Assembly (NCBI GenBank): GCA_029945725.1
Contig: JAQSDB010000010.1
Span: 1 to 64,000, forward strand
Direction of reading: 5' to 3'
Origin: a bacterium
GTDB lineage: Bacteria > Pseudomonadota > Gammaproteobacteria > Pseudomonadales > Moraxellaceae
Length of the DNA stretch: 64,000 nt
This document shows positions 30,289 to 49,264 of this stretch, in pieces. Numbering within the stretch: position 1 is the stretch's first letter; the number at the start of each line of letters is the position of its first letter. The translations under genes and the position numbers were made by a program. The notes beneath the pieces were generated by a model. That model was not told the DNA's origin. It worked only from the letters and a program-made list of their open reading frames with translations, and ran no database searches.

Positions 30289-30372
30289 GCACTTGTTTGA
30301 GCATACCCAAAAACGACAACGGCAGGGCATTGGACAGCCGTGATTCTGTGGGTGTTTGGCATCGCCGTCGTT

Positions 30373-30487
30373 GATCGCGGGCATGGCCCGCTCCTACGGT
30401 ACAGGGGGTGTAGGAGCGGGCCATGCCCGCGATCAGAACCATGCCACATCACCGCAACCGGCCACAGGAGCGGCCCATGCCCGCGAT
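30373..30487. repeat. REP inverted pair plus a degenerate copy
   Basis: An inverted copy at 30373-30397, a direct copy at 30410-30434 and a degenerate direct copy at 30464-30487 (ACAGGAGCGGCCCATGCC at its start). The last is 45 bp from the next start codon, so its hairpin may affect transcription or the 5' leader of that gene. Confidence 0.9.
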
Positions 30488-30531
30488 GGTTTTCTTTCTG
30501 TTACCCTGCCGGCCTTATCGCAGGGGATGAC

Positions 30532-30783
30532 ATGATGAAAAAACTGGCCGTGACAATCACACTCAACCTTAACGTTCCCGATCGCTGGGAAGTGGTGAGC
30601 AGCGCGGAAGGCGTTGATGTACTGAAGACAGGCGAGGGTGAATACCTCGACCTCACCTTCGAGCCCATGGTCGCCAAAGACATCGAGGCCGAATGGAGCA
30701 ACGCGGTCAGCGACGAGTTCATTGATGCGCTGTTCGAGATGGTGGAGCTTGAGGAAGTGAGCTACGAGCTCAGTCCTTCGTAA
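30532..30783 (+). CDS. Small acidic protein of unknown function
   Basis: The start at 30532 (ATGATG) follows CAGGGG; longer forms would read through REP DNA. The product has 83 residues: LAVTITLNLNVPDRWEVV at the N-terminus predicts a strand pair, and the C-terminal half is strongly acidic (DIEAEWSNAVSDEFIDALFEMVELEEVSYEL). There are no membrane segments or cysteines. The ribosome site, own terminator and absence of overlapping genes argue that it is real. Family not recognised. Confidence 0.65.
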   Translation: MMKKLAVTITLNLNVPDRWEVVSSAEGVDVLKTGEGEYLDLTFEPMVAKDIEAEWSNAVSDEFIDALFEMVELEEVSYELSPS

Positions 30784-30802
30784 ACCGCCTGGCAGTGACC
30801 CT

Positions 30803-30834
30803 GCAAAAGGGCGCGATTCATCGCGCCCTTTTGC
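30803..30834. terminator. Bidirectional terminator
   Basis: GCAAAAGGGCGCGAT and ATCGCGCCCTTTTGC form a perfect 15-bp stem with a 2-base loop. The A and T runs inside the stem give a U-tract in either direction, which suits its place between convergent genes (the small acidic protein and the acyl-CoA synthetase). Confidence 0.85.
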
Positions 30835-30886
30835 ATTGTGCCCGGAGTGCAGGGGCACCCTGAGCCGCCCTTGCAGCGGCCCCTGC

Positions 30887-32737
30887 CTATTTTTTATAAA
30901 GATGCTCAATCACTTCGGCGAAATGCGCTTCCATGTTTTTGCGTTTCAGCTTGAGGGTGGGGGTCAGCAGGGTGTTTTCGGTTGTCCAGGGTTCCAGCGT
31001 CAGGGCGACGGCGCGGGGCTGGGCATAATAGGGAAAGCTGTGCGTCTGCTCACGAATGCGCTCCAGCACGGCAGCGCGTGCCTCCGGTGCATGCAGGCTG
31101 TCGGCGGCATCCGGGTTCAGACGCAGCGACTGCGCCAGCTGATTCCATCCGGCGCGGCTCAGCACCACGATGCAGGCGATAAAAGGCCGGTTGTCACCGA
31201 AGGCATAGGCCTGCTCGAACAGCGGATTGCCGGTGATGGCGAGCTCCAGATCCGAGGGCGCAATTTTTTCGCCCGTTGATGTCACGATGATTTCCTTGAT
31301 GCGGCCGAGGATGCGGATGCGCCCGTTTTCGATGGCGGCCTGATCGCCGGTGCGCAGCCAGCCTTCAATGAAGGTGGCTTCGGTATCGGCTTCACGCTTC
31401 CAGTAGCCTTTCATGACGCTGCGGCCGCGCACCTGCAATTCCCTATTTTCACCAATGCGGACTTCGACGCCGCTCAAGGGCCGGCCGATGGTGGCCGGGT
31501 CGTTGTCTTCCGGTGAATTGGCGGCAACCACGGGCGAGGTTTCCGTCATGCCGTAGCCTTGCAGGATGGGAATGCCGAGGCCGATAAAGCAGTGGGCGAT
31601 GGGCTGCGACAAGGCTGCGCCGCCGCTGACCGCCGCGCGCAGGCGTCCGCCAAATTGTGCGCGCAACGGCGCCGCAACCAGTTTGTCGAGCAGCGGCCAC
31701 ACGGCATCGTCGAGCAGTGCGGGCACGGAACTTTCAAACGGCAACTGCTGCGCCCGGGAAAACCGCCGCCAGCCCGTATCCTGCGCCCACTGAAACAGGC
31801 GTGATTTCAGGGCCGACTGGGCCAGCATTCCTTTCACCACGGTGTAGGTGCGCTCATAAATTCGCGGCACGGAAATGAGGATGGTGGGGCGCACGGTTTT
31901 CAGGTCTTCCGACAGCAGCGCGACCGAACGCGCATGCGCCACGCAACTGCCGGCGGCGATGGGCAGGTAGTAGCCGGCGGTGCGCTCGAAGGTGTGGGAG
32001 AGCGGCAGGAACGACAGGAACAGGTCGTCGGCACCCGGTGCCACACGCTGCAAGGTGGCCTTCACGTTTTCCAGAATATTGTCATGGCTCAGCATGACGC
32101 CCTTGGGTTTTCCCGTGGTGCCAGAGGTGTAAACCAGCGCGGCCAGATCATCGGGTTCGGGGCCGCGCCGTGCGGCGCCGGCTGTTCGTGGAGTGCCTGC
32201 TTGTGCCAGCCAGTCATTGAGCCGCAACACGCTTGGCGCGCCGGAAGTGGCAGCGGCGGCTGTCACGGCTTCCACAATGATGACGTGCTGCAGTGACGGC
32301 AGCTCGACACCGGTTGCGGCAATGGCCCGCCACTGTTCCTGCGCAAACACGACCAGCACTTTCGTGTCACTGTCGCTCAGGATGTAGGCAATACTCGCCG
32401 GGTTATCGAGGGCATGCATGGGCACCGGAACCAGTGCCAAGGCAAGCGCCGCCTGGTCGACGCACACGGCCTGCAGGCCGTTGGGCAGGAGGATGGCAAT
32501 GCGCGATCCTCTTGGCAGATCAAGGTTTTCCAGCGCCACGGCCATCCGCTCCACCTGCCCGGCGATGGTTTTCCAGGAAACCGCGCGCCAGCGCTGGCCG
32601 GCTTCATCGTAATGGAGATAGGCATTGGCCTGCGGTGTTTGCGCGACGCGCCAGGTCAGCAGTTCCGACAGGGTGGTGACGGCATCCAGATGGCTGGTGC
32701 CATTGTTGTTACGCGGCGACTCGGTGGCGGTTGTCAT
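30887..32737 (-). CDS. Long-chain acyl-CoA synthetase (FadD-like, AMP-forming)
   Basis: The start at 32737 follows CCAGGA; a start seven codons earlier lacks a site. The product has 616 residues. ATP loop YTSGTTGKPKG (about 202-212), GYGMTETSPVV (about 384), TGDQA and the hinge GRIKEIIVTSTGEKIAP (about 484) define the AMP-forming ligases. It is similar in layout to FadD15-type long-chain ligases. It would activate free fatty acids for the dehydrogenases and crotonases encoded earlier in the window. It has its own transcript, convergent to the small acidic gene. Confidence 0.92.
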   Translation of the reverse strand: MTTATESPRNNNGTSHLDAVTTLSELLTWRVAQTPQANAYLHYDEAGQRWRAVSWKTIAGQVERMAVALENLDLPRGSRIAILLPNGLQAVCVDQAALALALVPVPMHALDNPASIAYILSDSDTKVLVVFAQEQWRAIAATGVELPSLQHVIIVEAVTAAAATSGAPSVLRLNDWLAQAGTPRTAGAARRGPEPDDLAALVYTSGTTGKPKGVMLSHDNILENVKATLQRVAPGADDLFLSFLPLSHTFERTAGYYLPIAAGSCVAHARSVALLSEDLKTVRPTILISVPRIYERTYTVVKGMLAQSALKSRLFQWAQDTGWRRFSRAQQLPFESSVPALLDDAVWPLLDKLVAAPLRAQFGGRLRAAVSGGAALSQPIAHCFIGLGIPILQGYGMTETSPVVAANSPEDNDPATIGRPLSGVEVRIGENRELQVRGRSVMKGYWKREADTEATFIEGWLRTGDQAAIENGRIRILGRIKEIIVTSTGEKIAPSDLELAITGNPLFEQAYAFGDNRPFIACIVVLSRAGWNQLAQSLRLNPDAADSLHAPEARAAVLERIREQTHSFPYYAQPRAVALTLEPWTTENTLLTPTLKLKRKNMEAHFAEVIEHLYKK

Positions 32738-32898
32738 CTTGATCAATCCTGGCAGCAAGCATAATCAGTGTGGCGGGGCGCGCTGAGTGTATCCCTTTAA
32801 AAATACAGCCCTGAACTGCTGCGGGGTTTTTCATACTCCCGCACTTCACGGTTTTTTTCTGTTCGTCATTTTTTCCGTTCAGCATGGATGCGCCTGCC

Positions 32899-33876
32899 TC
32901 AGGGCAGCAGCACGGTGGAGCCCACGGTTTCTCCCGCCGCAAGGGCGATCTGCGCCTGCGCGGTGTCCTTGAGTGCGTAACGCTGGCTGATATCAACGTT
33001 GATGCGGCCGCTGCTGATCATGGCGAAGAGTTCGTCGGCCATGGCCTGCAGGTGTGCGTGCGTGTCGGCGTAGCTGGCGAGGGTGGGGCGGGTAACGTAG
33101 AGCGAGCCTTTCTGCGCGAGGATGCCGAGGTTGACGCCGGTGACCGCGCCGGAGGAATTGCCGAAGCTGACGAGCAGGCCGCGCGCCTGCAGGCAGTCGA
33201 GGGAGGTCTCCCAGGTGGCCTGACCGACCGAGTCGTAAACCACCGCGCATTTGTTGCCGTCAGTCAGTTCCAGCACGCGCTGGCCGATGTCTTCACGGCG
33301 GCGGTTGATGCAGGCGCTGGCACCCAATTGCAGGGCGCGTTCGGCTTTTGCCTCTGAGCTGACCACGCCGATCAGGCGCGCACCGAGCGCGCGCGCCCAC
33401 TGGCAGGCGATGGAGCCGACACCGCCGGCGGCGGCATAAAACAAAATGGTTTCACCGGCTTTAACATCATAAGTCTGGCGCAGCAGGTATTGCGCGGTCA
33501 GGCCCTTGAGCATGACGGCGGCGGCCTGCTCGAAGGAAATGCCGGAAGGCAGCCGCACCAGATTCGCCGCCGGCAGCACATGCAGTTCGCTGCAGGCGCC
33601 CAGCGGCCCGGTGGCATAGGCGACACGATCACCAACGCGAACGCTGCTGACCTCGCTGCCCACCGCCTCGACCTCGCCCGCGCCTTCGGTGCCAAGGCCG
33701 GAAGGCAGGCTGGCCGGCTTGTAGAGGCCGCGGCGGAAATAGATGTCGATAAAGTTGAGGCCGATGGCGTGGTTGCGCACGCGCACCTCATGCGGGCCGG
33801 GGTTGGCCGGCGTGTAGTCACGGTACTCAAGAACCTCGGGACCGCCGTGGGCACTGAACTGGATGCGCTTTGCCAT
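32899..33876 (-). CDS. NADPH:quinone reductase (QorA-like)
   Basis: The 325-residue protein follows a GGAG. MAKRIQFSAHGGPEVLEYRD is typical of QOR. HAIGLNFIDIYFRRGLY, GLGTEGAGEVEAVG, and the Rossmann motif ILFYAAAGGVGSIACQWA (about 141-158) follow; no structural or catalytic zinc ligands are present. The enzyme reduces quinones with NADPH in one-electron steps in E. coli. It is on the same strand as the acyl-CoA synthetase but 161 bp upstream, so probably a separate unit. Confidence 0.92.
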   Translation of the reverse strand: MAKRIQFSAHGGPEVLEYRDYTPANPGPHEVRVRNHAIGLNFIDIYFRRGLYKPASLPSGLGTEGAGEVEAVGSEVSSVRVGDRVAYATGPLGACSELHVLPAANLVRLPSGISFEQAAAVMLKGLTAQYLLRQTYDVKAGETILFYAAAGGVGSIACQWARALGARLIGVVSSEAKAERALQLGASACINRRREDIGQRVLELTDGNKCAVVYDSVGQATWETSLDCLQARGLLVSFGNSSGAVTGVNLGILAQKGSLYVTRPTLASYADTHAHLQAMADELFAMISSGRINVDISQRYALKDTAQAQIALAAGETVGSTVLLP

Positions 33877-33968
33877 GACCGGGCTCCGCTGGGGAAAGAA
33901 GTATCCATTCTAGCGCGGCAAGGCTGTGCGTGCGGATGCCTGCGCTTGATGGGCAGGGGTGTGATTTT

Positions 33969-34066
33969 TCGCGGGCATTGCCCGCTCCTACTGGCGTGTG
34001 CGCGATCCCGTGCGCCGGCCAACAAAATGCCCAATCCCCCCGTAGGAGCGGGCCATGCCCGCGATC
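33969..34066. repeat. REP inverted pair in the gap before hsdM
   Basis: An inverted copy at 33969-33991 (one base shorter in the loop, GGGCATTGCCCGC) and a direct copy at 34042-34066. A partial copy (CCATGCCCGCGATC) follows at 34071. The 360-bp gap 33877-34236 holds nothing else recognisable; the hsd promoter should be in its last 100 bp, but I cannot pick a clear -35/-10 pair. Confidence 0.88.
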
Positions 34067-34236
34067 AGAACCATGCCCGCGATCAACACCACGCCCGCAG
34101 ATAAACCCTGCGCTCCGCCACCACCTGAACTCACCGCCTCCATTCTGGCTTGTTCCCCGGCCAGCTCGCATAATCCGGGGCTTTACGGCCACTCTGAATC
34201 GGGCCGGCTCATGCCAGAACCGGAAGAAGCACGCTC

Positions 34237-35907
34237 ATGCTGGAAGACATCAAGAAAACCCTCTGGGCCACCGCCGACAAGCTGCGCGCCAATATGGACG
34301 CCGCCGAATACAAGCACATCGTGCTCGGCCTGATTTTCCTCAAATACATTTCCGACACGTTTCAGCTGCGCCGCAACGAACTGACCCAGCGCTTTGCCAA
34401 CCCCGCCGACGAGTATTTTATGGAAGGCGCGGAGGCCGGGAGCATTGCCGCCGAGCTGGAAGACCGCGACTACTACCGCGAAGTGAATGCCTTCTGGGTG
34501 CCGGAAGGCGCGCGCTGGGAAGCGCTGCGCGCCAATGCCAAGCAGGCCGACATCGGCAAGCGCATCGACGATGCCCTGGCCCTGATCGAAGCCGAAAACC
34601 CCAAACTCAAGGGCATTCTCGACAAGCGCTATGCCCGCGCCCAGTTGCCCGATGGCAAGCTCGGCGAACTGGTCGACATGATTTCCACCATCGGTTTTGG
34701 CGACAAGGCGCAAAACGCCCGCGATCTGATCGGCCAGGTTTATGAATATTTTCTCGGCCAGTTCGCCAGCGCCGAAGGCAAGAAGGGCGGCCAGTTCTAC
34801 ACGCCGGCCAGCATCGTCAAAACCCTCGTCGCCGTGCTCGCCCCGCATCACGGCCAGGTCTACGATCCCTGCTGCGGCAGCGGCGGCATGTTTGTGCAAT
34901 CCGAAAAATTCATTGAAGCGCACGGCGGCAAGCTCGGCGATGTGAGCATCTACGGCCAGGAATCCAATCCCACCACCTGGCGCCTGGCCGCCATGAACCT
35001 CGCCATTCGCGGCATTGATTTCAATCTCGGCCGCGAGCCGGACGATACCTTCACCCGCAACCAGCACCCCGATCTGCGCGCCGATTTCGTGCTCGCCAAT
35101 CCGCCCTTCAACATCAGCGACTGGTGGCACGGCTCGCTCGAAGGTGATCCGCGCTGGGTCTACGGCACACCGCCCGCCGGCAACGCCAACTATGCCTGGC
35201 TGCAGCACATGCTCTATCACTTAAAGCCCGGCGGCCGCGCCGGCATCGTGCTCGCCAACGGTTCCATGAGTTCCAGCCAGAATTCCGAAGGCGATATCCG
35301 CCGCGCCATGGTCGAGGCCGACGTGGTCGAATGCATGGTCGCCTTGCCCGGCCAGCTTTTTTTCAACACGCAGATTCCCGCCTGTTTGTGGTTTTTGGCG
35401 AAAGAGACGACCGCCAGGGATGGTGGCAGTGCCGGAAACGCAGGCAATGCAGGAACGATTTCCGGTAAAAAAAACCGCCAGGGCGAAGTGCTGTTCATTG
35501 ATGCGCGCAAGCTCGGCAGCATGATCAGCCGCTCGCAAAGCGAACTCACCGATGAGGTGATTGAACGCATCGGCAACACCGTTGCCGCATGGCGCCATCA
35601 TGATTCCCCGAATGAAGACTCCCTCGCCCCCACCGGGGGAGAGGGCCGGGGTGAGGGGGCGGTTCTCCCCGAATACGAAGACATTCCCGGCTTCTGCCGC
35701 AGCGTCACCCTCGCTGAAATTGCCGAACACGGCCATGTGCTCACACCGGGCCGCTATGTCGGTGCCGAAGCCGTGGAGGATGACGACGAAGCCTTTGCCG
35801 AAAAAATGCAGAAACTCACCGAAAAACTCGGCGAGCAGATGGCCAAGGGTGCCGAGCTGGATCAGCTGATACGCCAGAAGCTGGGAGGGCTGGGGTATGA
35901 GTTCTGA
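34237..35907 (+). CDS. hsdM: Type I restriction-modification methyltransferase subunit
   Basis: This 556-residue HsdM has an N-terminal helical domain (1-160, [32 protein letters not shown]), SAM site DPCCGSGGM (from Asp210) and the N6-adenine catalytic motif NPPFN (288-292). [17 protein letters not shown] precedes the SAM site as usual. About 20 residues (about 462-482) in the C-terminal part come from a GC-rich palindrome read in frame, and a Gly/Ala/Asn-rich stretch lies near residue 392. The stop overlaps hsdS by 11 bp. HsdM2-HsdS modifies host adenines; with HsdR it forms the restriction complex. Confidence 0.95.
35621..35657. repeat. GC-rich palindromic repeat read in frame within hsdM
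   Basis: CCCTCGCCCC, a short loop, and GGGGGAGAGGG form an imperfect hairpin, extended by GCCGGGGTGAGGG. From memory, this word pattern is a widespread intergenic repeat in proteobacteria. It encodes [14 protein letters not shown] inside HsdM without breaking the frame. Confidence 0.65.
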
Positions 35908-37276
35908 GTGGCAATCAGTCCAACTTAACCAACTAATTACCATCAAACATGGCTTTGCATTTAAGGGTGAATATTTCTGTGATGAACTAACTCAGTATCA
36001 GTTAACAACGCCTGGAAATTTCGCCATTGATGGTGGTTTCCAGCTTGGTAAAGGTAAGTATTACAACGGGCCTATTGTTGAGGATTACATTCTCAAAAAA
36101 GGAGATTTAATCGTTACGATGACGGATCTGAGTAAGGCTACAGATACACTAGGGTACTCTGCGGTAGTGCCTGAAACCAAAGGCACTACTTGGTTGCATA
36201 ATCAACGAGTTGGCTTGGTGCAGATTAAAACTGGGGTAGTGGTTGATACTAAGTTTCTGCATTATCTGATGCGTAGTGATACATATCGCCAATGGGTTGT
36301 ATCAAGTGCTTCTGGTTCAACGGTGAAACATACATCGCCGTCACGCATTTGCGACTATCGATTTGATGTGCCTCCCTATGGCGTGCAGGTGTCAATTGGA
36401 GAGGCGCTTACTACTCTCGACGACCGCATTTCTCTCCTTCGCGAAACCAACGCCACCCTCGAAGCCATCGCCCAGGCCCTGTTCAAATCATGGTTTGTCG
36501 ATTTCGACCCCGTCCGCGACAGAATGGAAGGCCGCGAACCCGAAGGTGTTGCACAGGGAGGTGCGAATGTCGCGAGCGCAGGATGTGCAGGAACGACCAT
36601 AAGCGCCGAAACCGCCGCCCTTTTCCCCGATGCTTTCGAGGAATCAGAACTCGGCCTGATCCCGAGAGGGTGGAAGGTTGTACCTCTCAGTTCGATTTCA
36701 ACCGTCACGATGGGCCTGTCGCCCAAAGGTGATAGCTATAACTCTGAGGGACATGGTGTGCCGCTAATCAATGGGCCTGTTGAATTCGGTGAATACTTTC
36801 CTGTTAGAACTAAGTGGACCAGCGCTTCAGATCGAGTGGCGCACACAGGTGATTTGATATTTTGTGTCCGTGGTTCGACAACTGGGAGGCGTGTTGTCGC
36901 AGATGGTGACTACTGTATTGGTCGTGGAGTCTGTTCTATTCGAGCACACAACGGCACCAACGGATTTCTCTTTCAAACGATCAATTTTGGCCTTGATCGC
37001 TTGCTCTCCAAAACGACTGGCTCCGTGTTCCCCAGTTTGAGTGCTCCGGACATCAAGGGCTTTAATATATTAGCGCCTGAAGCTAACTTGATAGATACCT
37101 ATGAAGATACTACGAGGCCATTGCTTCATAGAATTCAGAGTAACCAGAGAAAAATTGAAACCCTGACCCAACTCCGCGACACCCTCCTGCCGCGCCTGAT
37201 CTCCGGCCACCTTCGCCTGCCGGAAGCCGACGCTGCTGTTGTTGAAGGCCCGCGGGCTGCAATTGGTGCAGTGTAA
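35897..37276 (+). CDS. hsdS: Type I restriction specificity subunit
   Basis: The 459-residue protein has two target-recognition domains (about 1-165 and 250-410), each followed by a conserved helical spacer: [43 protein letters not shown] and [21 protein letters not shown], written here only as landmarks around residues 176-215 and 422-440. Both recognition domains are clearly more AT-rich than the spacers, the mosaic seen when they are swapped between strains. A linker [14 protein letters not shown] after the first spacer is unusual. The target should be bipartite; its bases cannot be read. Confidence 0.93.
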
Positions 37277-37419
37277 GGGGCGCCTGTTGGCGCAGGGATA
37301 ATCTGCCGTAACCGGTGGCACCGGCATGATGTTGAGCCGTGTTTGATGGTGGTGGCGCTGGCGGGCGTTGCGGTGGTGCGGTTTGTGGCGGAGGCAGGGC
37401 GGCGTTCGCCGTTCACGCC

Positions 37420-37630
37420 GCGCCAACCGGACCTGTGGTGACGGGTTTTTGCGGCATCGTGTCGCGGGCATGGCCCGCTCCTGCGCGGGATTCATTTTTC
37501 GCAGGAACGGGCCATGCCCGCGATACCAGAGCGACAGTATTCATTTTTCGTAGGAGCGGGCCATGCCCGCGATGTCTTGCTTGCAGGAAAACAAACCGGA
37601 TTTTTGTTCATGAGCGAAAACCAGCTGGAA
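37420..37630 (+). repeat. Direct repeat, copy 1 (leader of the nuclease gene), with three REPs
   Basis: From CGCCAACCGGACCTGTGG to the first codons of the nuclease this stretch matches 39804-39988 with small differences: GGTGACGGGTTTTTGCGGCAT, an inverted REP (37462-37484), a direct REP, then AAACAAACCGGATTT and ATGAGCGAA.ACCAGCTGG. This copy has two direct REPs (37501-37524, 37550-37573) against one in copy 2. It covers most of the gap 37277-37609. Confidence 0.85.
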
Positions 37631-38854
37631 CCGGAAAAAATATCCCGCCTTCTGAATGAGGTGGCGTTCAAGACCGCCACCCTGGCCGAGGCCAGAAAAC
37701 GCTTCTCTGCCCAGCTTGCACCGGAATTCAGCATATTCGATTTTCTGCGGACGGATGAAACGGGACTTTCGAGCTGCATCGCCAGTCTGCTGGACCCCAA
37801 AGGCACGCACGGGCAGGGCAGTGGTTTTCTGGAGGCATTCATTGCCGGCCTGAATGCTCCCGCCGGCCTCGACATCAATGCGAAAGACTGCCGTGTGCAA
37901 ACGGAAAAACAGGCCAATGGCCAGCGTCGCATTGATATCCACCTGGAAATGACCGGCTGCGTTATTGGCATTGAAAACAAGCCCTGGGCAGGCGATCAGG
38001 ACAGGCAGTTGTCTGACTATGCCGCATACCTGAAAAACAATGCGGCCAACAGGCACTGGATGCTGGTTTACCTTTGCAACAGTGATCCAGCGGAAAACAG
38101 CATTAGCAAAGACGAACTAAAAGCGCTTGAAGCCGGTAAAAATTATTTCCGCATGGATTACTGGGATCTCATCAAGTGGCTTGACGGTTGTGCGGGGAAA
38201 TCCAGATCACTGGTGGTGCGGGTTTTCATTGAAGAGCTGGCGAATTTTATCCGGATAAAAGTGAATGGGGAGCCAGACATGTCTGAGGCAATAGAGCTGA
38301 AAAACATCATCCTGAGCTCCAATGAAAACCTGGATGCTGCATTCCACATTGCCGGTTCCATGACGCTGGTTAAAAACGGACTGCTTGAGGAATTCCGGGA
38401 TGCCCTGAAGGCAGAGCTGGATGTCAGGGATCTCATACTGGTCTGGGAAGAAACGCTCTCGGCCAGTGGCAAGGCCTGTGCCGGTTTTGGCGTGAAATTC
38501 AATGCGGGCCACAGGTTTCACCTCCGCTTTGAGTTTTCCTATACGGGCCTGAACGGGCTTGAATGGGGGATTTGCAGAAACAACAAAACAGTGACCTGCG
38601 ATCAGCAACGGTGGGGCGACATCAAAGAGCGGATGGACAGCCACATCCGGCCAGGAAAAGCATCCGATTGGTGGCCATGGTATGTCGTTGACCTGAGTGA
38701 CGATCTTGCGTCCTCCCTAAGGGACTGGGGCAACTCTTCGACAGCGTGGGTCATGATCAGGGACAAGTCTGATGCCGGTCTGGTGCAAAGAATATGCAAA
38801 ATTGTCGATCGGGTGCGCGAGGCCTTGTCGGGTACCGGTGATGTATTGGCTTGA
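37610..38854 (+). CDS. PD-(D/E)XK nuclease family protein (PDDEXK_4-like)
   Basis: The start at 37610 (MSENQLEPEK) lies in the repeated leader. The product has 414 residues. The catalytic core is RRIDIHLE (Asp109) followed 13 residues later by GIENKPWAGDQ (Glu122, Lys124), then DRQLSDYAAYL, the standard PD-(D/E)XK pattern of PF14281. The N-terminal part holds FDFLRTDETGLSSCIASLLDPKGTHGQG, which is family-typical. The C-terminal half has no known domain. Such proteins occur in defence islands, where they are assumed to cut DNA. Position between hsdS and hsdR suggests accessory restriction. The ribosome site is weak. Confidence 0.82.
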   Translation: MSENQLEPEKISRLLNEVAFKTATLAEARKRFSAQLAPEFSIFDFLRTDETGLSSCIASLLDPKGTHGQGSGFLEAFIAGLNAPAGLDINAKDCRVQTEKQANGQRRIDIHLEMTGCVIGIENKPWAGDQDRQLSDYAAYLKNNAANRHWMLVYLCNSDPAENSISKDELKALEAGKNYFRMDYWDLIKWLDGCAGKSRSLVVRVFIEELANFIRIKVNGEPDMSEAIELKNIILSSNENLDAAFHIAGSMTLVKNGLLEEFRDALKAELDVRDLILVWEETLSASGKACAGFGVKFNAGHRFHLRFEFSYTGLNGLEWGICRNNKTVTCDQQRWGDIKERMDSHIRPGKASDWWPWYVVDLSDDLASSLRDWGNSSTAWVMIRDKSDAGLVQRICKIVDRVREALSGTGDVLA

Positions 38855-38935
38855 GGTCATGGAATAACCGGGCCTGCAAAGGTCCGCCGGTTTTTAGTGT
38901 GCCGGCATTGTGTCGCGGGTTGTATCGCAGGTTGT

Positions 38936-39006
38936 ATCGCGGGCATGGCCCGCTCCTACGGGGTAGTGGTATTCATTTTTCCGTAGGAGCGGGCCATGCC
39001 CGCGAT
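38936..39006. repeat. REP inverted pair
   Basis: An inverted copy at 38936-38959 and a direct copy at 38983-39006 lie between the nuclease gene and the operator of the next gene. Half-copies of TGTCGCGGGTTGTATCGC precede it. Confidence 0.92.
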
Positions 39007-39042
39007 GTCATTGATACCGGCGAAACGCTGCTGGCACCGGGC

Positions 39043-39089
39043 TTGACACTGTTGCCTTTATGGCTACAAATGTCGCCATAAAGGCAACA
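39043..39089 (+). promoter_or_regulatory. Promoter with a perfect 15-bp inverted-repeat operator
   Basis: TTGACA (39043-39048) and TACAAA (39065-39070) are separated by 16 bp. TGTTGCCTTTATGGC (39050-39064) and GCCATAAAGGCAACA (39075-39089) are perfect 15-bp arms around a 10-base centre that contains the -10 box. Any dimer bound here would block polymerase. The wHTH protein encoded 13 bp downstream is the obvious ligand, giving negative autoregulation. Confidence 0.85.
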
Positions 39090-39102
39090 CTTGAGGTAGG
39101 GC

Positions 39103-39690
39103 ATGTCGCTCGCTGCTGTTCTGTTCACTGATTACCGCCGCCGGGTGCTGGGCTTGCTGCTGCTGCATCCGGAGCGGCGCTATCACCTGCGCGAGATCGC
39201 GCGGCTGACCGGCACGGTGCCGGGCACGCTGACGCGCGAGCTGGCCAAGCTGGCCGAGGCGGGCGTGCTGGTGAAAGAGAAGGTGGGCAGCCAGCTGCAG
39301 TTTGCCGCCAACCGCGATTGCCCGGTTTATGAAGAGCTGGCCAGCATCCTGCGCAAAACCTCGGGCGTGGTGGATGTGCTGGCCGAGGCCCTGCAGCCTC
39401 TGGGCGAGCAGATAGACACGGCGTTTGTGTTTGGCTCTGTGGCCGGTGGCAAGGAAACGGCGGGCAGCGATATTGATCTGATGGTGATCGGGGCGGTGGG
39501 CTATGCGGAGGTGGTGGAGCGGCTTTATCCCCTGCAGCAAACCCTGGGCCGCGAGATCAATCCCAAGGTCTACAGCCGCAGCGAGTGGCGCACGCTCTGC
39601 AAGGCGCAGGGCAGTTTTGTGCGCGAGGTGTTGAGCAAGCCGCGCTTGCCTGTACTGGGCAGCGAGAACGATGTCATGGATGACGTCTGA
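39103..39690 (+). CDS. Winged-HTH protein fused to a nucleotidyltransferase domain
   Basis: This 195-residue protein follows GAGGTAGGGC. Residues 8-70 are an ArsR/MarR-like winged helix (YHLREIARLTGTVPGTLTRELAKLAEAGVLV). Residues 100-185 are a minimal nucleotidyltransferase with the signature GSVAGGKETAGSDIDLMVIG: G111-S112, then Asp123 and Asp125 as metal ligands. Relatives are MntA-type domains, which AMPylate HEPN toxins, and AbiEii-like toxins; others are plain regulators. No HEPN gene is adjacent, so its target may be Fic or HsdR products, or nucleic acid. The fusion lets one protein both sense and repress. Confidence 0.85.
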   Translation: MSLAAVLFTDYRRRVLGLLLLHPERRYHLREIARLTGTVPGTLTRELAKLAEAGVLVKEKVGSQLQFAANRDCPVYEELASILRKTSGVVDVLAEALQPLGEQIDTAFVFGSVAGGKETAGSDIDLMVIGAVGYAEVVERLYPLQQTLGREINPKVYSRSEWRTLCKAQGSFVREVLSKPRLPVLGSENDVMDDV

Positions 39691-39803
39691 TCAAACAGGG
39701 AGTGCGCAGGTGCGATTAGCGCAGCGTCGTTATCTGATGCATGCAGTGGTGGGGCACGGTGTGGATTGTGGTTTTCGTTCGTCCCGTCCCGTTACGTTGC
39801 GTT

Positions 39804-39988
39804 GCGCTAACCGGACCTGCGGTGACGGGTTTTTGCGGCATTGTGTCGCGGGCATGGCCCGCTCCTACGCGGGATTAATTTTTCGTAGGAGCGGGCCATG
39901 CCCGCGATGCCATGCGGCGGCGAAAACAACCGTGGTGGCGGGAAAACAAACCGGATTTGTATTCATGAGCGAAGACCAGCTGGAACAA
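39804..39988 (+). repeat. Direct repeat, copy 2 (leader before fic), with REP pair
   Basis: This matches 37420-37630: CGCTAACCGGACCTGCGG, GGTGACGGGTTTTTGCGGCAT, an inverted REP (39846-39868), a direct REP (39885-39908), AAACAAACCGGATTT, then ATGAGCGAAGACCAGCTGGA. The gap 39691-40022 contains only this repeat and the small open frame that it starts. Confidence 0.85.
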
Positions 39989-40030
39989 AAAGCGGATGTG
40001 CCGGCAACGGGGGCGTGTTGCGATGAGTAG
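39965..40030 (+). CDS. 21-codon leader or relic of an hsdR start
   Basis: ATG at 39965 reads [21 protein letters not shown] and stops at 40028-40030, eight bases past the fic ATG at 40023. The first eight residues equal those of HsdR (MTEDQLEQ) apart from one, and resemble those of the nuclease (MSENQLEP). It may be a decayed hsdR 5' end that now serves to couple translation into fic, which has only a weak ribosome site. Confidence 0.4.
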   Translation: MSEDQLEQKADVPATGACCDE

Positions 40031-41045
40031 CCGCTATCAGCCCCCCGTCACCGTGACGCCTGCCATGCTCTCGCTGGTTGCCGGTATCTGCGAGCGTATC
40101 GGGCGCTGGTCGGTGACCGGTGAAAACGTAATGTCGCCACAACTGCGTCGCGGCAACCGTATCCGTACCATTCAGGCTTCGCTGGCCATTGAAAACAATA
40201 CCCTGAGCGTGGAGCAGGTGACGGCGGTGCTGGAGGGCAAACGTGTGCTCGGGCTGCCACGCGAAATCCAGGAGGTGCGTAATGCTTTTGCAGCGTATGA
40301 GCAGTTACCGCTGTGGCGCGTGGCCTCGGTAAACGATCTGCTGGGCGCGCATGGTTTGCTGATGGCGGGGCTGGTGGATGAGGCCGGTACACTGCGCAGT
40401 GGCGGTGTCGGGATTTATCACGGTGACACGCTGGTGCATATGGCACCGCCGGCGAAGCAACTTGATCGCTTGCTGCATGATCTGCTGGCGTGGCTGGAAA
40501 GCACGCCATTGCATCCCCTGATCGCCAGTTGTGTTTTTCACTATGAATTTGAGTTCATCCATCCTTTTTCGGATGGTAATGGCCGCATGGGCCGTTTGTG
40601 GCAAACACTTGTTTTGAGCCAGTGGCAGCCTGCGCTGGCATGGTTGCCGGTGGAAACCGTGGTGCGCGACAGACAGGCGGCGTATTACGCGGCGCTGGCG
40701 GAGTCGGACAGGGTGGCGCAAGCAACGCCGTTTGTGGAATTTATGCTGGCGGCCTTGCTGGCTGCGATGGATGAGGCCGTCACCGACCAAGTAAGCGACC
40801 AAGTAAGCGACCAAGTAAAACGGCTGCTCAAGGCATTGGCCCCGAACGGGGCGGTGAAGGCAGAGGACTTGATGCTGAATCTTGGTTTGTCGCACCGGGC
40901 TACTTTCCGCAGCAATTATCTGAATCCTGCGTTGCAGGGCGGCTTGATCGAAATGACCCATCCGGACTCACCCCGGAGTCCGGTGCAAAAATACCGGCTG
41001 ACGAATAAAGGCAGAGCGCTGCTGACAAGGAAAAAGGCTTCATGA
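40023..41045 (+). CDS. Fic family AMP-transferase-like protein
   Basis: The 340-residue protein has the Fic motif [12 protein letters not shown] (His180 onward) and a class II inhibitory motif SLAIEN (53-58) at the N-terminus, so it should be self-inhibited until triggered. A Fic_N-type helical region (1-100) precedes the core. A C-terminal winged helix (about 270-335) follows the tandem [17 protein letters not shown]. Fic enzymes usually transfer AMP to hydroxyls of target proteins. The ATG of hsdR overlaps this stop (ATGA), tying Fic output to HsdR synthesis. Targets unknown; HsdR or DNA gyrase are only guesses. Confidence 0.9.
40785..40817 (+). repeat. 12-bp tandem repeat in fic
   Basis: Unit GACCAAGTAAGC occurs 2.75 times, coding DQVS repeats between the Fic core and the C-terminal winged helix. 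Being a multiple of three, changes in copy number would only alter linker length. Confidence 0.85.
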
Positions 41046-44000
41046 CCGAAGACCAACTGGAACAGGAAGTGCTGGGCTGGCTCGCCGAGGTTGGCTACAC
41101 CCGTGTTTATGGGCCGGATATTGCCGTGGATGGCGATGCGCCGGAGCGCCAGGATTATCGCCAGCCGGTGCTGGTGGAGCGCCTGCGCCGTGCCATCGCC
41201 CGCCTGAATCCCCTGATTCCGCTGGCCGCGCGCGAGGATGCACTGCAGCAGGTGCTGAACCTGGAAACGCCGGTGCTGCTGTCGGCCAATCGCCGTTTTC
41301 ATGCGCTGCTCAGCAATGGCGTGCCGGTGGCTTACCAGAAAGACGGTGAAACACGCGGTGATTTTGTGCGCCTGCTCGATGTTGTGGAGGCGGGCGCCAA
41401 TGAATGGCTGGCCATCAACCAGTTTTCCCTGAAGGGCGCCAAGCACACGCGCCGGCCCGACATCATCCTGTTTGTAAACGGTTTGCCGCTGGTGCTGCTG
41501 GAGCTGAAAAATCCGGCCGACGAGAAGGCGGATATCTGGAAAGCCTTCGACCAGATCGAAACCTACAAGGAACAGATTCCGGATGTGTTCCAGTACAACG
41601 AGGTGCTGGTGATTTCCGATGGCACCGAAGCGCGCATGGGCTCGCTGTCGGCCAATGCCGAGCGCTTTCAGGCCTGGCGCACCATCGACGGCCTTGTGCT
41701 TGATCCGCTGGGCCAGCATAACGAGCTGGAAACGCTGATTCGCGGTGCGCTGGCGCCAGCGGCGTTGCTCGATTTCATCCGCTTTTTTGTACTGTTTGAA
41801 GACGACGGCACGCTGGTGAAGAAAATTGCCGGCTATCACCAGTTTCATGCGGTGCGCTCGGCCATTGCGCAGGTGGTCACGGCTTCGCGCCCCGGTGGCA
41901 ACCAGAAGGGCGGCGTGGTCTGGCACACGCAAGGCAGTGGCAAGAGCATCACCATGACCTGTTTTGCCGCGCGCGTGATGCGCGAGGCGGCCATGGAAAA
42001 CCCGACCATTGTGGTGATTACCGACCGCAATGATCTCGACGGCCAGTTGTTCGGCGTGTTTTCCCTGGCGCAGGATTTGTTGCGTGAGCAGCCGGTGCAG
42101 GCAGAAACGCGGCAGGATTTGCGTGCGCGCCTGAGCAACCGTCCCTCCGGTGGCATTGTCTTTGCCACCATCCAGAAATTCATGCCGGGCGCCGATGAGG
42201 ATGTGTTCCCGGTGCTGTCGGATCGTCACAACATTGTGGTGATTGCGGATGAAGCCCACCGCACCCAGTACGGTTTTGGTGCCACGCTGAAAGACATCAA
42301 GAATCCCGCTTCTGAAAAAAATGCTTCAGCCGGTGAAGTGCGTGATGTCTCGGCCCGTTATCAGGTGGGGTATGCCCAGCACCTGCGCGATGCCCTGCCC
42401 AATGCCACTTTCGTGGCGTTTACCGGCACGCCGGTATCAGGCGAAGACCGCGACACGCGCACCGTTTTTGGTGATTACATTCATGTCTACGACATGCAGC
42501 AGGCGAAAGAAGATGGCGCCACGGTGGCCATTTATTACGAATCGCGCCTTGCCAAACTGTCACTGAATGCCGAAGAGCTGCCGCATATTGATGAGGAAGT
42601 GGACGAGCTGGCAGAGGAAGACGAGGCGGATGAACAATCGCGCCTGAAAAGCCGCTGGGCCGCGCTGGAGAAAATCGTGGGTGCCGAGCCGCGCATCCTG
42701 CAGGTGGCCGGCGACATCGTTCAGCATTTTGAAACACGCAACAACGCACAAGCCGGCAAGGCCATGATTGTCGGCATGAGTCGCGACATCTGCGTGCATC
42801 TCTACGATGCCATCGTGGCCCTGCGCCCGGACTGGCACGATGAAGACCCGGCCAAAGGCGCCATCAAGGTCGTGATGACGGGTTCCGCCAGCGACAAGGC
42901 CTTGCTGCGCCCGCATATCTACCCGAAGCAGACGCGCAAGGATCTGGAAAAACGCTTCAAGGATGAACATGATCCGCTGCAGCTCGTGATCGTGCGCGAC
43001 ATGTGGCTGACCGGTTTTGATGCGCCCTGTGTGCATACGCTGTACGTGGACAAGCCCATGAAGGGCCACAACCTGATGCAGGCGATTGCGCGGGTGAACC
43101 GCGTTTTCAAGGGCAAGAAAGGCGGGCTGGTGGTGGATTACATCGGTATCGCCAATGATCTGAAACAGGCGCTGAAGGAATACACCGCCAGCAAGGGGCG
43201 CGGCCAGCCTACCGTGGATTTGCATGAAGCCTGGGCCGTGCTGGAAGAAAAGCTCGATGTGCTGCGCGGCATCCTGCACGGTTTTGATTACAGCGGTTTT
43301 CTCACCGGCGGCCACAAGACGCTGGCGCAGGCTGCCAACTTCATTCTGGGCGTGGATGACGGCAAGAAACGCTTTGCCGATCACGCGGTAGCCATGAACA
43401 AGGCCTACAGTCTGTGCTGCACTCTCGATGAAGCCAGGGCGGTGCGTGAGGAAGTGGCTTTTTTATACGCGATTAAAGTCATTCTCACCAAGCGCGACAT
43501 CAGTACCAAAAAGCGGACCAATGAAGAACGCGAGCTGGCTATCCGCCAGATCATCAACTCGGCCGTGGTCAGTGAAGACGTGGTCGACATCTTTGATGCG
43601 GTGGGTCTGGAAAAACCCAATATCGGTATTCTTGATGAAGGCTTCCTCAATGAGGTACGCAATCTGCCGGAGCGCAATCTGGCCGTTGAGTTGCTGGAGC
43701 GCCTGCTCGCGGGCGAGGTCAAAACCCGCTTTGCCAGCAATGTGGTGCAGGAGAAAAAGTTTTCCGAGCTGCTGACCAGCGTGATGACCCGTTACCAGAA
43801 CCGCTCCATCGAAACGGCACAGGTGATGGAAGAACTGTGTGCAATGGCGAAGAAGTTCAAGGAAGCGGCCGAGCGCGGCGAAACACTCGGCCTGAATGAC
43901 GACGAGCTGGCCTTTTACGATGCGCTGGCCAATAACGAGGCTTCTGTCAAAGAGCTGGGCGACGAGACCCTGAAAAAGATCGCCCACGAACTGACCGAGA

Positions 44001-44173
44001 GCCTGCGCAAGAATGTCACGGTGGACTGGTCGGTGCGTGATGGTGTCCGCGCCAGGCTGCGTCTTCTGGTTAAACGCATCCTGCGCAAATACAAATACCC
44101 GCCGGATAAACAGGACGCCGCGGCTGAAATGGTGTTGCAGCAGGCCGAAGCACTTTGCGAGGCATGGGCCTAG
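41042..44173 (+). CDS. hsdR: Type I restriction endonuclease/translocase subunit
   Basis: This 1,043-residue HsdR has a PD-(D/E)XK nuclease domain with VLLELKNP (Glu154, Lys156), then an SF2 motor: Walker A QGSGKS (298-302), [18 protein letters not shown] (403-406) followed by [18 protein letters not shown], and motif VI region [16 protein letters not shown]. The C-terminal helical part (about 780-1043) binds the methyltransferase core. It cuts unmodified foreign DNA after translocation. All core motifs are intact. It starts inside the fic stop codon, so its translation depends on fic; hsdM and hsdS lie 3.7 kb upstream. Confidence 0.95.
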
Positions 44174-44193
44174 CGCCTGTTTTGCCGCAGGCA

Positions 44194-44258
44194 ATCGCGG
44201 GCATGGCCCACTCCTGCATGCATCACCGCCGCCGTAGGAGCGGGCCATGCCCGCGATC
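44194..44258. repeat. REP inverted pair after hsdR
   Basis: An inverted copy at 44194-44217 (CCCACTCCTGC variant) and a direct copy at 44234-44258. These are the last REPs in the window; none occurs in the type I secretion region beyond. Confidence 0.9.
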
Positions 44259-44322
44259 AAACGATGCATCGCCAGCGCGATTGCTGTTGTGATGCTGAAA
44301 TAATGACGGACACAGAAATACC

Positions 44323-44350
44323 AAAGCCCGCTTCAGGAAGCGGGCTTTTT
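44323..44350 (+). terminator. Rho-independent terminator after the hsd locus
   Basis: AGCCCGCTTC (44325-44334) and GAAGCGGGCT (44337-44346) form a 10-bp stem with a 2-base loop, then T5. AAA before the stem could extend it with the T tract. It separates the hsd operon from the second fic gene. Confidence 0.9.
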
Positions 44351-44427
44351 GTTTGGGATTTGGCTTCCGATCTGTACCGACGTCAGAGTGCACTTTGTGC
44401 AACTGCGGTGATTAAGGTATTTAAACG

Positions 44428-44442
44428 CCGCATATTATGCGG
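44428..44442. promoter_or_regulatory. Palindrome CCGCATA-T-TATGCGG before the second fic gene
   Basis: Perfect 7-bp arms lie 44 bp before the ATG. A weak promoter TTGTGC (44395-44400) / TATTTA (44418-44423, 17-bp spacing) would put the palindrome at about the transcription start, where a repressor would act. The Fic protein itself ends in a winged-helix-like region. Confidence 0.45.
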
Positions 44443-44485
44443 ATAATGGTTTGCGCGGGTGGGGAATGCAGGCCACAATCTCCGC

Positions 44486-45625
44486 ATGAACAGCAGTGAT
44501 TACACCTATATCTGGCAGGCCAGTGACTGGCCGAACTGGACCTACGATCTGGCCGCCCTGGCCGGGCCATTGGCCGGTGTTAGCCGTGCCCAGGGTTTGC
44601 TGCTTGGCCGGCTGGCCGATGTCGGCATGGCACTGCGCGATCAGGCCAGTCTGGCTGCGCTGACCGAGGATGTCCTCAAGACCAGCGAAATCGAGGGCGA
44701 GCGGCTGGATGTTGCTTCCGTCCGGTCCTCCATTGCCCGTCGTTTGGGGGTGGATATTGGTGCCTTGGCGCCAGTGGATCGTCATGTTGAAGGCGTGGTC
44801 GAGATGGTGCTGGATGCCACGGCGCATTGTGAGGCCGCGCTGACCCTGGACCGGTTGTTCAGCTGGCATGCAGCGTTGTTTCCCACCGGCTACAGCGGAC
44901 TCGCGCCAATTCGTGTGGGCGCCTTCCGGGATGACAAGAGCGGCCCCATGCAGGTGGTTTCCGGCCCCATCGGCCGTCAGCGGGTTCACTTCGAGGCACC
45001 ACCAGCGAAGCGCCTGAAGGGGGAGGTGGCGCGCTTTATGAAGTGGGTCAATGCCGGTGGCCCGGATCATCCGATCCTGAAGGCGGGCCTCGCGCACTTG
45101 TGGTTTGTCACCCTGCATCCCTTTGATGATGGTAATGGACGTATTGCCCGTGCCATCGGTGATCTGCTGCTGGCGCGCGCCGATGGCAGCCCTCAGCGCT
45201 TTTACAGCCTGTCTGCCCAGATTCAGCGTGAGCGGCGTGATTACTACAGCATTCTGGAGCGCAGCCAAAAAGGTGCTCTGGATGTGACGCCCTGGCTGGC
45301 ATGGTTTCTGGAGAATCTGGTGACAGCGGTCAACACCGCACAACACACTCTGGATGCCGTGCTGTCGAAAACACGTTTCTGGCAGCGCTGGGCCACCACA
45401 CCGTTGAACGAGCGGCAAGTGAAGCTGATTAATCGCTTGCTCGACGGCTTCGATGGAAAACTAACCAGCAGCAAGTGGGCGGCCATTGCCAGGTGTTCCC
45501 CGGACACCGCGCTGCGCGATATCAACGAGCTCCTGACCTATGGCGTGTTGCGCAAATCTGCAGCGGGCGGGCGCAGCACGAGTTACGAATTAAACGAAGC
45601 GGCGATGGGTCTTGATCGTGCCTAG
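44486..45625 (+). CDS. Fic family protein with DUF4172-like N-terminus
   Basis: The 379-residue protein starts at this ATG; a GTG nine codons earlier has no better site. Residues 1-90 (YIWQASDWPNWTYD, then LTEDVLKTSEIEGERLD) match DUF4172, containing the inhibitory motif TSEIEG (66-71). The Fic motif is HPFDDGNGRIAR (His211 onward), and GPIGRQRVHFEAP is the flap that holds the target. The C-terminus (about 320-370) is a winged helix. It is likely an autoinhibited AMP-transferase, perhaps with transcriptional function. It has its own promoter region and is separated from hsdR by a terminator. Confidence 0.9.
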   Translation: MNSSDYTYIWQASDWPNWTYDLAALAGPLAGVSRAQGLLLGRLADVGMALRDQASLAALTEDVLKTSEIEGERLDVASVRSSIARRLGVDIGALAPVDRHVEGVVEMVLDATAHCEAALTLDRLFSWHAALFPTGYSGLAPIRVGAFRDDKSGPMQVVSGPIGRQRVHFEAPPAKRLKGEVARFMKWVNAGGPDHPILKAGLAHLWFVTLHPFDDGNGRIARAIGDLLLARADGSPQRFYSLSAQIQRERRDYYSILERSQKGALDVTPWLAWFLENLVTAVNTAQHTLDAVLSKTRFWQRWATTPLNERQVKLINRLLDGFDGKLTSSKWAAIARCSPDTALRDINELLTYGVLRKSAAGGRSTSYELNEAAMGLDRA

Positions 45626-45751: not shown

Positions 45752-45773
45752 CCTTTGCCGTTTGCAAAGGAGG
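45752..45773 (+). promoter_or_regulatory. Hairpin that overlaps the ribosome site of the ABC exporter gene
   Basis: CCTTTGC (45752-45758) and GCAAAGG (45764-45770) pair perfectly around a 5-base loop. The right arm includes AAGG of the Shine-Dalgarno AAGGAGG (45767-45773), 9 bp before the ATG. A U-run lies upstream. Folding would hide the ribosome site, so translation of the secretion genes may be controlled by temperature, a protein or a small RNA. Confidence 0.55.
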
Positions 45774-45782
45774 CAGTCACGG

Positions 45783-49243: not shown

Positions 49244-49264
49244 TTTTTTAATGAGTTAAAAATA

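Follow-up and report, generated by a model that had tools for sequence, protein, structure and literature searches.

We lean, with modest confidence, towards a reading in which cargo entered the gap between hsdS and hsdR of a type I restriction-modification (R-M) operon two or more times, on each occasion with the hsdR 5′ end as its anchor. The operon lies in the window, as we call the whole 64-kb stretch of Moraxellaceae DNA analysed here, and its hsdS–hsdR gap of 3,765 nt contains two copies of the hsdR start. Such copies beside cargo would be scars left by successive insertions that used the gene adjoining the entry point as their anchor.

Scanning the window for open reading frames (ORFs) and Pfam domains placed hsdM, hsdS, a PD-(D/E)XK nuclease gene, a wHTH-nucleotidyltransferase (NTase) gene, fic and hsdR in this order on the + strand, as the original prediction had it. 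The locus thus has hsdM, hsdS and hsdR on the same strand and foreign genes embedded between the last two. The methyltransferase subunit gene hsdM (34237–35907; Pfam N6_Mtase, 1.3e-104, and HsdM_N; PADLOC MTase_I) overlaps the specificity subunit gene hsdS (35897–37276; Pfam Methylase_S in two stretches) by 11 nt, again as predicted. The nuclease gene (37610–38854; Pfam PDDEXK_4, 7.9e-24; PADLOC candidate PDC-S26, 1.4e-41) encodes IENK at residue 121; its ORF in full spans 37514–38854, and the start at 37610 is the likelier one. In the NTase gene (39103–39690; NTP_transf_2/Polbeta) the Pfam matches cover the NTase part, and the wHTH part was assigned by eye. The fic gene (40023–41045, with 40023 as its likely start; Pfam Fic, 2.1e-18, and Fic-like_C, 1.3e-28) shares an ATGA overlap of its stop codon with the ATG of the restriction subunit gene hsdR (41042–44173; HSDR_N, SWI2_SNF2 and T1RH-like_C; TIGR00348). 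These two genes had been described as translationally fused; they overlap but are not fused. A hairpin resembling an intrinsic terminator by consensus match only follows hsdR (44323–44348, +).

All three cargo genes had been taken for effector-like genes. Their defence-like character stands, since two of them match the PADLOC candidates PDC-S26 and PDC-M05A and the third is hit by the SoFic and PDC-S04/S24 models, but the NTase is better described as antitoxin-like than as an effector. It corresponds to PDC-M05A (E 1.6e-79), the NTase component of the two-gene system PDC-M05, whose partner PDC-M05B has no window match better than E 0.73 in a profile search. The window NTase is probably a leftover; PDC-M05B is found as a partial ORF in a Methyloversatilis locus (L030). 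Class II Fic proteins are defined by an (S/T)xxxE(G/N) motif N-terminal to the Fic core and by the active-site motif HPFx(D/E)GNGRxxR. Both occur in the window Fic, where the first reads SLAIEN (S-x-x-x-E-N), which we take to be the class II autoinhibition motif. The Fic protein had been called autoinhibited, and a motif of the inhibitory type is indeed present in its translation.

Cargo in the hsdS–hsdR gap is common, recurrent, defence-like and already published. A 2024 bioRxiv preprint by Payne et al. reportedly deals with defence systems found inside type I R-M loci. In our own survey the gap measured at least 600 nt in 62 of 72 loci, the window included, so the cargo noted in the original prediction is real and recurrent. 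Of the 80 loci whose gap reaches 300 nt, 17 have an open frame ending in the ATGA of hsdR.

That prediction went further and envisaged a layered backup, with cargo proteins kept inactive by HsdMS/HsdR and freed when restriction is blocked, as in the PrrC precedent described in part of PMC12707154. We found recurrent defence-like cargo in the gap and no support for the idea that the R-M complex restrains three effectors, and we regard such gating as very unlikely. It would agree with the embedding of cargo in the operon, with the recurrent ATGA overlaps and with a significant correlation between Fic and HsdR distances (0.33, 16 loci, Mantel p 0.001). However, over the same 14 loci Fic and HsdR divergence correlate at r = 0.37 and HsdR and HsdM at 0.76 (0.97 in the 16 Fic loci that include the distant L130), and Fic thus follows its R-M host loosely. 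The Fic protein also has an inhibitory-type motif of its own, and the NTase is without its partner.

Relatives of the cargo also bear on gating. In the stretches read there is no hsd gene near nuclease relatives on Acinetobacter plasmids, near an NTase relative on a Sulfuricella plasmid or near a Fic relative in Methylobacter, which instead lies close to cas genes. The tie to hsd on which the gated reading depends is loosened in part by these cases. On an Azotobacter plasmid, nuclease and Fic relatives occur together in one hsdS–hsdR gap. Evidence on a PrrC-type guardian status of the cargo, judged from sequence, is mixed and points mostly away from it. The nuclease and Fic are most likely self-contained defence genes that would share expression with the operon and would not be restrained by the R-M complex.

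The two hsdR-start copies are parts of larger repeated blocks on the + strand. Block A (37420–37631) comprises a spacer, a REP pair, an extra REP and the first copy, with its ATG at 37610; block A′ (39804–39986) comprises a second copy of the spacer, of the REP pair and of the hsdR start, with its ATG at 39965. The blocks align as direct repeats of 109 nt (101 of 109 identical) and 54 nt (48 of 54). Among the matches listed from the same genome, with 40 of 52 candidates scored, all others are partial and REP-like. The first copy (37610–37633; MSENQLEP) agrees with the hsdR start at 20 of 24 nt and is in frame with the nuclease ORF, whose start it likely supplies. The second (21 of 24 nt) begins a 21-codon leader ORF, MSEDQLEQ...CCDE (39965–40030), the end of which overlaps the fic ATG (ATGAGTAG). 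When 3,320 control keys were taken from deeper in hsdR genes, seven scored at least 19 of 24; six of these fall inside longer hsdR stubs of L030 and L130, and the remaining one (19, in L062) is a chance match. Each copy in the window is short, at about eight codons. Neither the repeated hsdR start nor the REPs between genes figured in the original prediction.

Terminator-like hairpins lie ahead of both copies (37474–37489 and 39858–39873) and 3′ of the nuclease gene (38869–38886), and they argue against unbroken co-expression. The repeats found in the locus are the hsdR starts with their spacer, and REPs. Among the scanned locus proteins, Pfam searches for an integrase gene, as would suit an integron-like array, found none.

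The REPs allow for a different origin, in which a Y1 transposase and REP hairpins copied or moved blocks, with the hsdR start riding along. A RAYT-like Y1 transposase gene flanked by REPs (26353–26835, +; Pfam Y1_Tnp, 2.8e-06) is a candidate source, and 23 of the 42 REP copies in the genome (at most two mismatches) fall within 19.4 kb that span the locus and this gene. REP pairs also separate modules of the window, one of them lying in the nuclease–NTase interval (38937–39005; repeat scan), and REPs adjoin stubs both here and in L130, where a REP–transposase–REP unit abuts stub B. However, self-scans of four other stub-bearing loci (L030, L064, L069 and L151) gave no REP-type repeat and one palindrome each, none beside the stub, and clustering of REPINs near their own RAYT, as described for P. 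fluorescens in part of PMC3116915, makes the proximity ordinary. We give REP-driven shuffling little credence.

Longer hsdR 5′ stubs, of about 36–78 codons, lie between cargo genes in four other lineages. The copy in Methyloversatilis (L030) agrees with hsdR at 132 of 137 nt, counted from the start of the gene, and breaks off sharply thereafter. In two Chlorobiaceae loci (L064 and L069) the stub ORF has an ATGA overlap at each side, and in L151 it overlaps the next cargo gene by ATGA. L130 has two stubs, of which the one farther from hsdR has diverged more (69% against 80% at the amino acid level). Between L064 and L069 the stubs differ by two synonymous and six nonsynonymous codons, too few to judge relic status; the corresponding counts are 13 and 8 for the hsdR start and 29 and 31 for the SIR2 cargo. 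A mirror image is seen in L032, where a 3′ relic of mcrC adjoins hsdR, with a DUF3800 gene and a 165-residue ORF in between. Close to a contig end is a further locus, L131, which we count as no more than a likely stub case.

Stubs are infrequent, occurring in three of 74 loci of the first locus set, two of which are close relatives. Among the tabulated matches from the same 48 genomes there was no short-frame stub match; further partial HsdR matches, mostly in frames of several hundred residues, were left outside the stub count. No close relatives with and without a stub, and none sharing a stub but differing in cargo, were found in six genomes of the genus of G1094 and six of the family of G137. 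A search for an empty site in nine genomes of the window's genus matched the flanking oxidoreductase DNA in the window's own genome only. Nothing points to a separate ancestry of the hsdR 5′ tip, whose HsdM correlation (0.437) falls within the range of the other segments compared (0.09–0.65).

The repeated material is biased towards the hsdR N terminus. When segments of each HsdR were compared with the gap of the same locus (83 loci), the N-terminal 80 residues gave matches in four loci, at five places, and three internal segments and one C-terminal segment gave none in any of the 83 gaps at E 0.001; the window's own copies are too short to register in this test. A self-repeat scan of 81 gaps, which took in L130 and L151 on account of their stubs, returned 15 direct repeats, of which six, in four loci, span the hsdR start.

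This bias bears on a tandem duplication followed by decay, in which a second cargo–hsdR unit arose or arrived alongside the first, the redundant hsdR was deleted, and its 5′ end was retained because coupled translation needed it. L134, where an intact hsdR is followed by a Y1 transposase gene, a RhuM gene and an hsdR 5′ remnant, fits such a duplication better than an insertion scar. It would also be in keeping with L133, in which hsdR residues 1–62 pass directly into 973–1042, and with L149 and L150, which have a Fic-related match and an hsdR 5′ piece and no full hsdR in the stretch read. The absence of internal and C-terminal remnants from all gaps speaks against duplication, however, as does the near-identical L030 copy that ends cleanly at about 137 nt, and we hold it to be unlikely.

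Several candidates were dropped. In Pseudomonas and Chlorobiaceae loci, weak matches at 116 nt before hsdR proved to be the conserved C-terminal part of a DUF1016 cargo gene. L132 has a Tn3 transposase and a resolvase adjoining a cut hsdR; L133, described above, was set aside as a stub, as was L135, where hsdR residues 1–49 are followed by 256–1036. In L148, L152 and L153 the hsdR start is near a contig end, and L136–L140, taken up on weak matches, yielded no stub. The supposed relic in L005 is a wHTH C terminus common to an AlbA_2 protein and Fic, and that in L097 is a palindromic repeat. E. coli plasmid fragments annotated as HsdR adjoin an IS5-family transposase gene in both records read and were not counted.

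Under the insertion reading that we favour, incoming DNA would carry cargo beside a piece of hsdR or of its preceding spacer. Homologous recombination would take place on the hsdR side, and the other end would be attached without homology a short way into the resident hsdR (homology-facilitated illegitimate recombination); alternatively, a circle could integrate at the hsdR start by a single crossover. By either route the new cargo would come to lie between the resident hsdR tip on its left, which forms the scar, and a complete hsdR on its right. The old hsdR start and its translation signal would now serve the new cargo: in the window, copy 1 would give the nuclease ORF its start and copy 2 would act as the leader overlapping fic, and HsdMSR would restrict in the usual manner. 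Joins of this kind would be selected for, since they leave hsdR and earlier cargo undamaged and provide the new cargo with the old hsdR start. The pattern that illegitimate recombination would leave (an anchor at one end, an unrelated join at the other and a duplicated anchor tip) is seen in the sequences; no event was observed.

A bolder version is doubtful. The hsdR 5′ tip would be an attachment segment used repeatedly by a cassette system without an integrase, from which units of hsdR tip plus cargo would exit as circles through recombination between direct repeats and re-enter at an hsdR start. If true, defence genes would travel from one type I R-M locus to another and arrive at sites that provide for their translation.

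Two Azotobacter plasmids offer a comparison with the same cargo families in the gap. NZ_CP066312.1 reads hsdS–Fic–PDDEXK–hsdR and NZ_CP045301.1 reads hsdS–Fic–hsdR, with 95% identity in fic and 97% in hsdR, and homology resumes at AAATGACC, the hsdR start. The pair is compatible with gain or loss of the nuclease gene. Unlike the window, these loci have Fic first and no NTase, and searches with HsdR segments and the hsdR start found no hsdR copy in their gaps.

Embedded defence genes are used for discovering new immune systems, and the passages of the literature considered here do not explain how cargo enters R-M operons without breaking them. If hsdR-start copies are indeed scars, they would provide a readable record of entry with the hsdR start as the landing place, hint at the order in which cargo was acquired and account for the immediate translation of new cargo. 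Short HsdR-like ORFs between cargo genes may then be relics, not genes.

Known systems share parts of this arrangement. DarTG2 lies between hsdS and hsdR in EPEC, a site named as a potential recombination hotspot in the same paper on RptR (PMC12255303), and in Pseudomonas GI-Hotspot 7 a defence system is embedded in a type I R-M locus (PMC12629846). The window resembles both, but has several cargo genes in series with scars alongside; the portions of these two papers considered here describe neither hsdR-start copies nor an insertion mechanism. PrrC likewise is an effector encoded within a type I R-M locus, EcoprrI, according to part of PMC12707154, whereas restraint of cargo by R-M is without support in the window. 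REP elements cluster near the Y1 transposase gene in the REPIN/RAYT systems treated in sections of PMC3116915; here, unlike there, the cluster runs through the R-M locus and separates cargo genes. In the T6SS effector–immunity displacement arrays of Vibrio cholerae, a one-sided homology anchor with an illegitimate join has been proposed (PMC5361080), and from the part of that account considered here the likeness extends to the one-sided anchor, serial events and residual gene pieces. The T6SS arrays have their anchor upstream and retain orphan immunity genes, whereas in R-M loci the anchor would mostly lie downstream and the residue consists of hsdR 5′ ends. A search of titles and abstracts, with preprints outside its scope, found no paper describing repeated hsdR starts among cargo genes. 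What is new here is anatomical: copies of the hsdR start beside cargo, in the window and in other lineages.

The gene order that the original prediction claimed for the type I restriction-modification (R-M) locus is present, with hsdM (34237-35907), hsdS (35897-37276), a PDDEXK_4 nuclease, a wHTH-nucleotidyltransferase (NTase), fic (ATG at 40023) and hsdR (41042-44173) all on the plus strand. The claimed overlaps also hold, with 11 nt shared by hsdM and hsdS and an ATGA joining fic to hsdR. HsdMSR is expected to restrict in the usual way. The three cargo genes in the hsdS-hsdR gap match PADLOC models PDC-S26 (nuclease), PDC-M05A (NTase), and SoFic, PDC-S24 and PDC-S04 (Fic). The nuclease probably starts at 37610 rather than at 37514, the longest-ORF start, since the match to the best PDC-S26 model sets in at residue 41 of that longer ORF and an Azotobacter relative, judged by eye, starts at a comparable point. 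The NTase is half of a two-gene pair: in a Methyloversatilis locus (L030), the ORF after an NTase of the same type matches its usual partner, PDC-M05B, and is truncated at its N terminus. The window yielded no comparable ORF, the best match (E 0.73) lying elsewhere than beside the NTase. The Fic protein bears an S-x-x-x-E-N motif, which we take to be a self-inhibition signal, and thus probably regulates its own activity.

Consensus matching across 33800-44500 gave 20 terminator-like sites, compared with 11.7 in shuffles, and a single sigma-70-like site, which lies past hsdR. Those in the gap at 37474-37489, 38869-38886 and 39858-39873 adjoin repeats or the nuclease end, and such hairpins, as consensus matches, disfavor unbroken transcription of the gap. 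An intrinsic-terminator-like hairpin, also a consensus match only, lies 3′ of hsdR (44323-44348). Farther on, past a REP pair and a hairpin of terminator type, comes another Fic protein with DUF4172 and Fic domains (44459-45625), and an ABC transporter, an RCC1-repeat protein, a 4268-aa ORF and an HlyD-family protein occupy 45762-63549 in series, an arrangement suggestive of type I secretion of a giant protein.

The hsdS-hsdR gap is a hotspot for cargo. The comparison covered 86 loci, namely the best 80 of 588 with a close HsdR, the window, L096-L099, and L130, which was picked for its partial hsdR duplicate (stub). Both flanking genes were located in 72, and the gap measured at least 600 nt in 62 of these, 150-600 nt in 4 and less than 150 nt in 6. 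Clustering of 109 cargo proteins, with groups named from one representative each, yielded Fic as the largest group (19, including the window), followed by AlbA_2/Schlafen-type (8), DUF1016 (8), two DUF3800 groups (7 and 6) and McrB-like proteins with McrC (6 and 5). Among the 80 loci whose gap reaches 300 nt, 17 have an open frame of at least 100 codons that terminates in the hsdR ATGA. Embedding of defense systems in type I R-M loci is already known: DarTG2 sits between hsdS and hsdR in EPEC, a site its authors term a potential recombination hotspot (PMC12255303), and a Pseudomonas island hotspot holds mostly type I R-M systems enclosing a second system (PMC12629846).

Linkage of cargo to hsd, on which the original prediction depended, proved partial. 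Relatives of each cargo were found without an hsd gene within the stretch read, whereas the Fic-HsdR correlation is significant. Between HsdR and HsdM, distances show a correlation of 0.80 over 61 loci and of 0.76 in the 14 of them that carry Fic; in those 14, the value is 0.37 for Fic against HsdR and 0.43 for Fic against HsdM. Adding two loci gives 0.33 for Fic-HsdR (Mantel p 0.001), and Fic too is therefore not independent of its host locus. These sequence comparisons suggest that cargo comes and goes rather than being a fixed R-M partner.

The window gap contains two repeated blocks, each comprising a spacer, a REP pair and an hsdR start. Positions 37420-37528 agree with 39804-39912 in 101 of 109 nt; for 37578-37631 against 39933-39986 the count is 48 of 54 nt. 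The second pair terminates in the hsdR-start copies ATGAGCGAAAACCAGCTGGAAC and ATGAGCGAAGACCAGCTGGAAC, hsdR itself reading ATGACCGAAGACCAACTGGAAC. Copy 1 is likely the start of the nuclease ORF (MSENQLEP-EKIS...), and copy 2 forms a 21-codon ORF that overlaps the fic ATG at its end. Their scores, 20 and 21 nt over 24 nt, stand out because only 7 of 3,320 control keys reach at least 19, six of these within the L030 and L130 stubs and one by chance. The remaining matches to the block listed elsewhere in the genome are partial and REP-like (40 of 52 candidates scored).

Stubs recur in other lineages, with 3 among the 74 loci not chosen for them (those of the best 80 with a gap of at least 150 nt). 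In L030 the first 46 hsdR codons are copied (132 of 137 nt) up to an abrupt break; the PDC-M05B-like ORF stop overlaps this copy, and Fic, a DUF3800 gene and whole hsdR follow. In two Chlorobiaceae loci (L064 and L069), a stub ORF of 78-79 codons lies between a SIR2-like and a DUF1016 cargo, with hsdR after the latter; neighbors are linked by ATGA overlaps, and the two stubs differ at only 8 codons.

Surveys with an HsdR N-terminal query (369 genomes, 70 matching; 398 genomes, 47 matching) supplied four more loci (L130, L131, L134 and L151), hence selected for such matches. In L130 (genome G137), DUF3800 and another ORF precede stub A, which approaches the Fic start codon to within 2 nt; stub B comes after Fic and is followed by a REP-flanked Y1 transposase, RhuM and hsdR. 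In L151 (G1094), a 90-aa stub ORF lies after a YobI-type ATPase and overlaps an AlbA_2 gene by ATGA, with hsdR next, and the L131 (G390) contig ends 92 nt past a likely stub. A survey of 390 genomes (42 matching, overlapping the other sets) gave no clear stub case, the three partial matches read being contig-end or hsdR-less remnants; nor did one of 48 genomes (12 with a match), judged from its match table. Among other observations, a short hsdR fragment adjoins an IS5-family transposase in L155 (6001-6399) and L156 (5001-5399), a partial match at query 7-49 found in 46 of 60 rows listed, with 301 of 404 records from Escherichia. In L132 (3418-7495), a Tn3-family transposase and a resolvase adjoin an hsdR truncated at about codon 60.

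In 83 loci, segments of each HsdR were compared with the gap of the same locus, or with up to 5 kb upstream of hsdR where neither hsdS nor hsdM could be located. The N-terminal 80 aa matched in 4 loci (5 places), two of them closely related and another (L130) chosen for its stub, the window copies being too short to score; three internal segments and one C-terminal segment matched in none of the 83. A plus-strand scan of 81 gaps gave 15 direct repeats. Six span the hsdR start (two each in the window and L130, one each in L030 and L151), one joins the two window blocks, one joins the L130 stubs, four correspond to REPs in the window and in L130, and one each is a palindromic element (L097), a wHTH coding segment (L005) and a repeat in L032; the L064 and L069 stubs are too diverged to register. 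In L005 (7427-9816), an AlbA_2-type cargo and the following Fic share related winged-helix ends (73% over 93 nt).

Serial insertion anchored on one side is, we think, the best account of these arrays and stubs. An anchor in hsdR would leave the resident hsdR tip to the left of new cargo, and one in mcrC would leave the resident mcrC tip on the right, so that both forms would be expected. In L032 (7705-9309), an mcrC 3′ relic lies immediately before hsdR, separated from full mcrC by a DUF3800 gene and a 165-aa ORF. Tandem duplication with decay is a real rival source of the stubs and is favored by L134 (G108), which has the reversed arrangement of intact hsdR, Y1 transposase, RhuM and an hsdR 5′ remnant. 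Our searches yielded neither a pair of relatives with and without a stub nor a foreign tract at the hsdR tip. The Y1 transposase-RhuM pair adjoins hsdR in both L130 (7050-8740) and L134 (4403-6085), whose genomes belong to two different families, upstream of intact hsdR once and downstream once.

It is possible that REP/RAYT elements took part in duplicating the hsdR-start blocks. Of 42 REP copies in the genome (at most 2 mismatches), 23 lie within 24896-44256 (19.4 kb), mostly paired between genes, a clustering for which the binomial P is about 1e-40 on the assumption of independent copies, one that paired REPs break. A Y1 transposase gene (26353-26835) has REPs on both sides, and REP clusters beside RAYT genes have been described (PMC3116915). 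However, the scan showed no REP-type repeat in L030, L064, L069 and L151, and a single palindrome in each that does not adjoin the stub.

Two Azotobacter plasmid loci differ by one cargo gene: that of A. chroococcum has hsdS-Fic-nuclease-hsdR and that of A. salinestris has hsdS-Fic-hsdR (identity 95% in fic, 97% in hsdR, 80% in hsdS). Homology stops near the fic stop and restarts at AAATGACC, the hsdR start, and gain or loss of the nuclease would account for this alike. Neither gap yielded an hsdR copy, and a scar is therefore not a necessary consequence of entry at the hsdR start. Serial one-side-anchored insertion has likewise been proposed for type VI secretion system effector-immunity arrays (PMC5361080).
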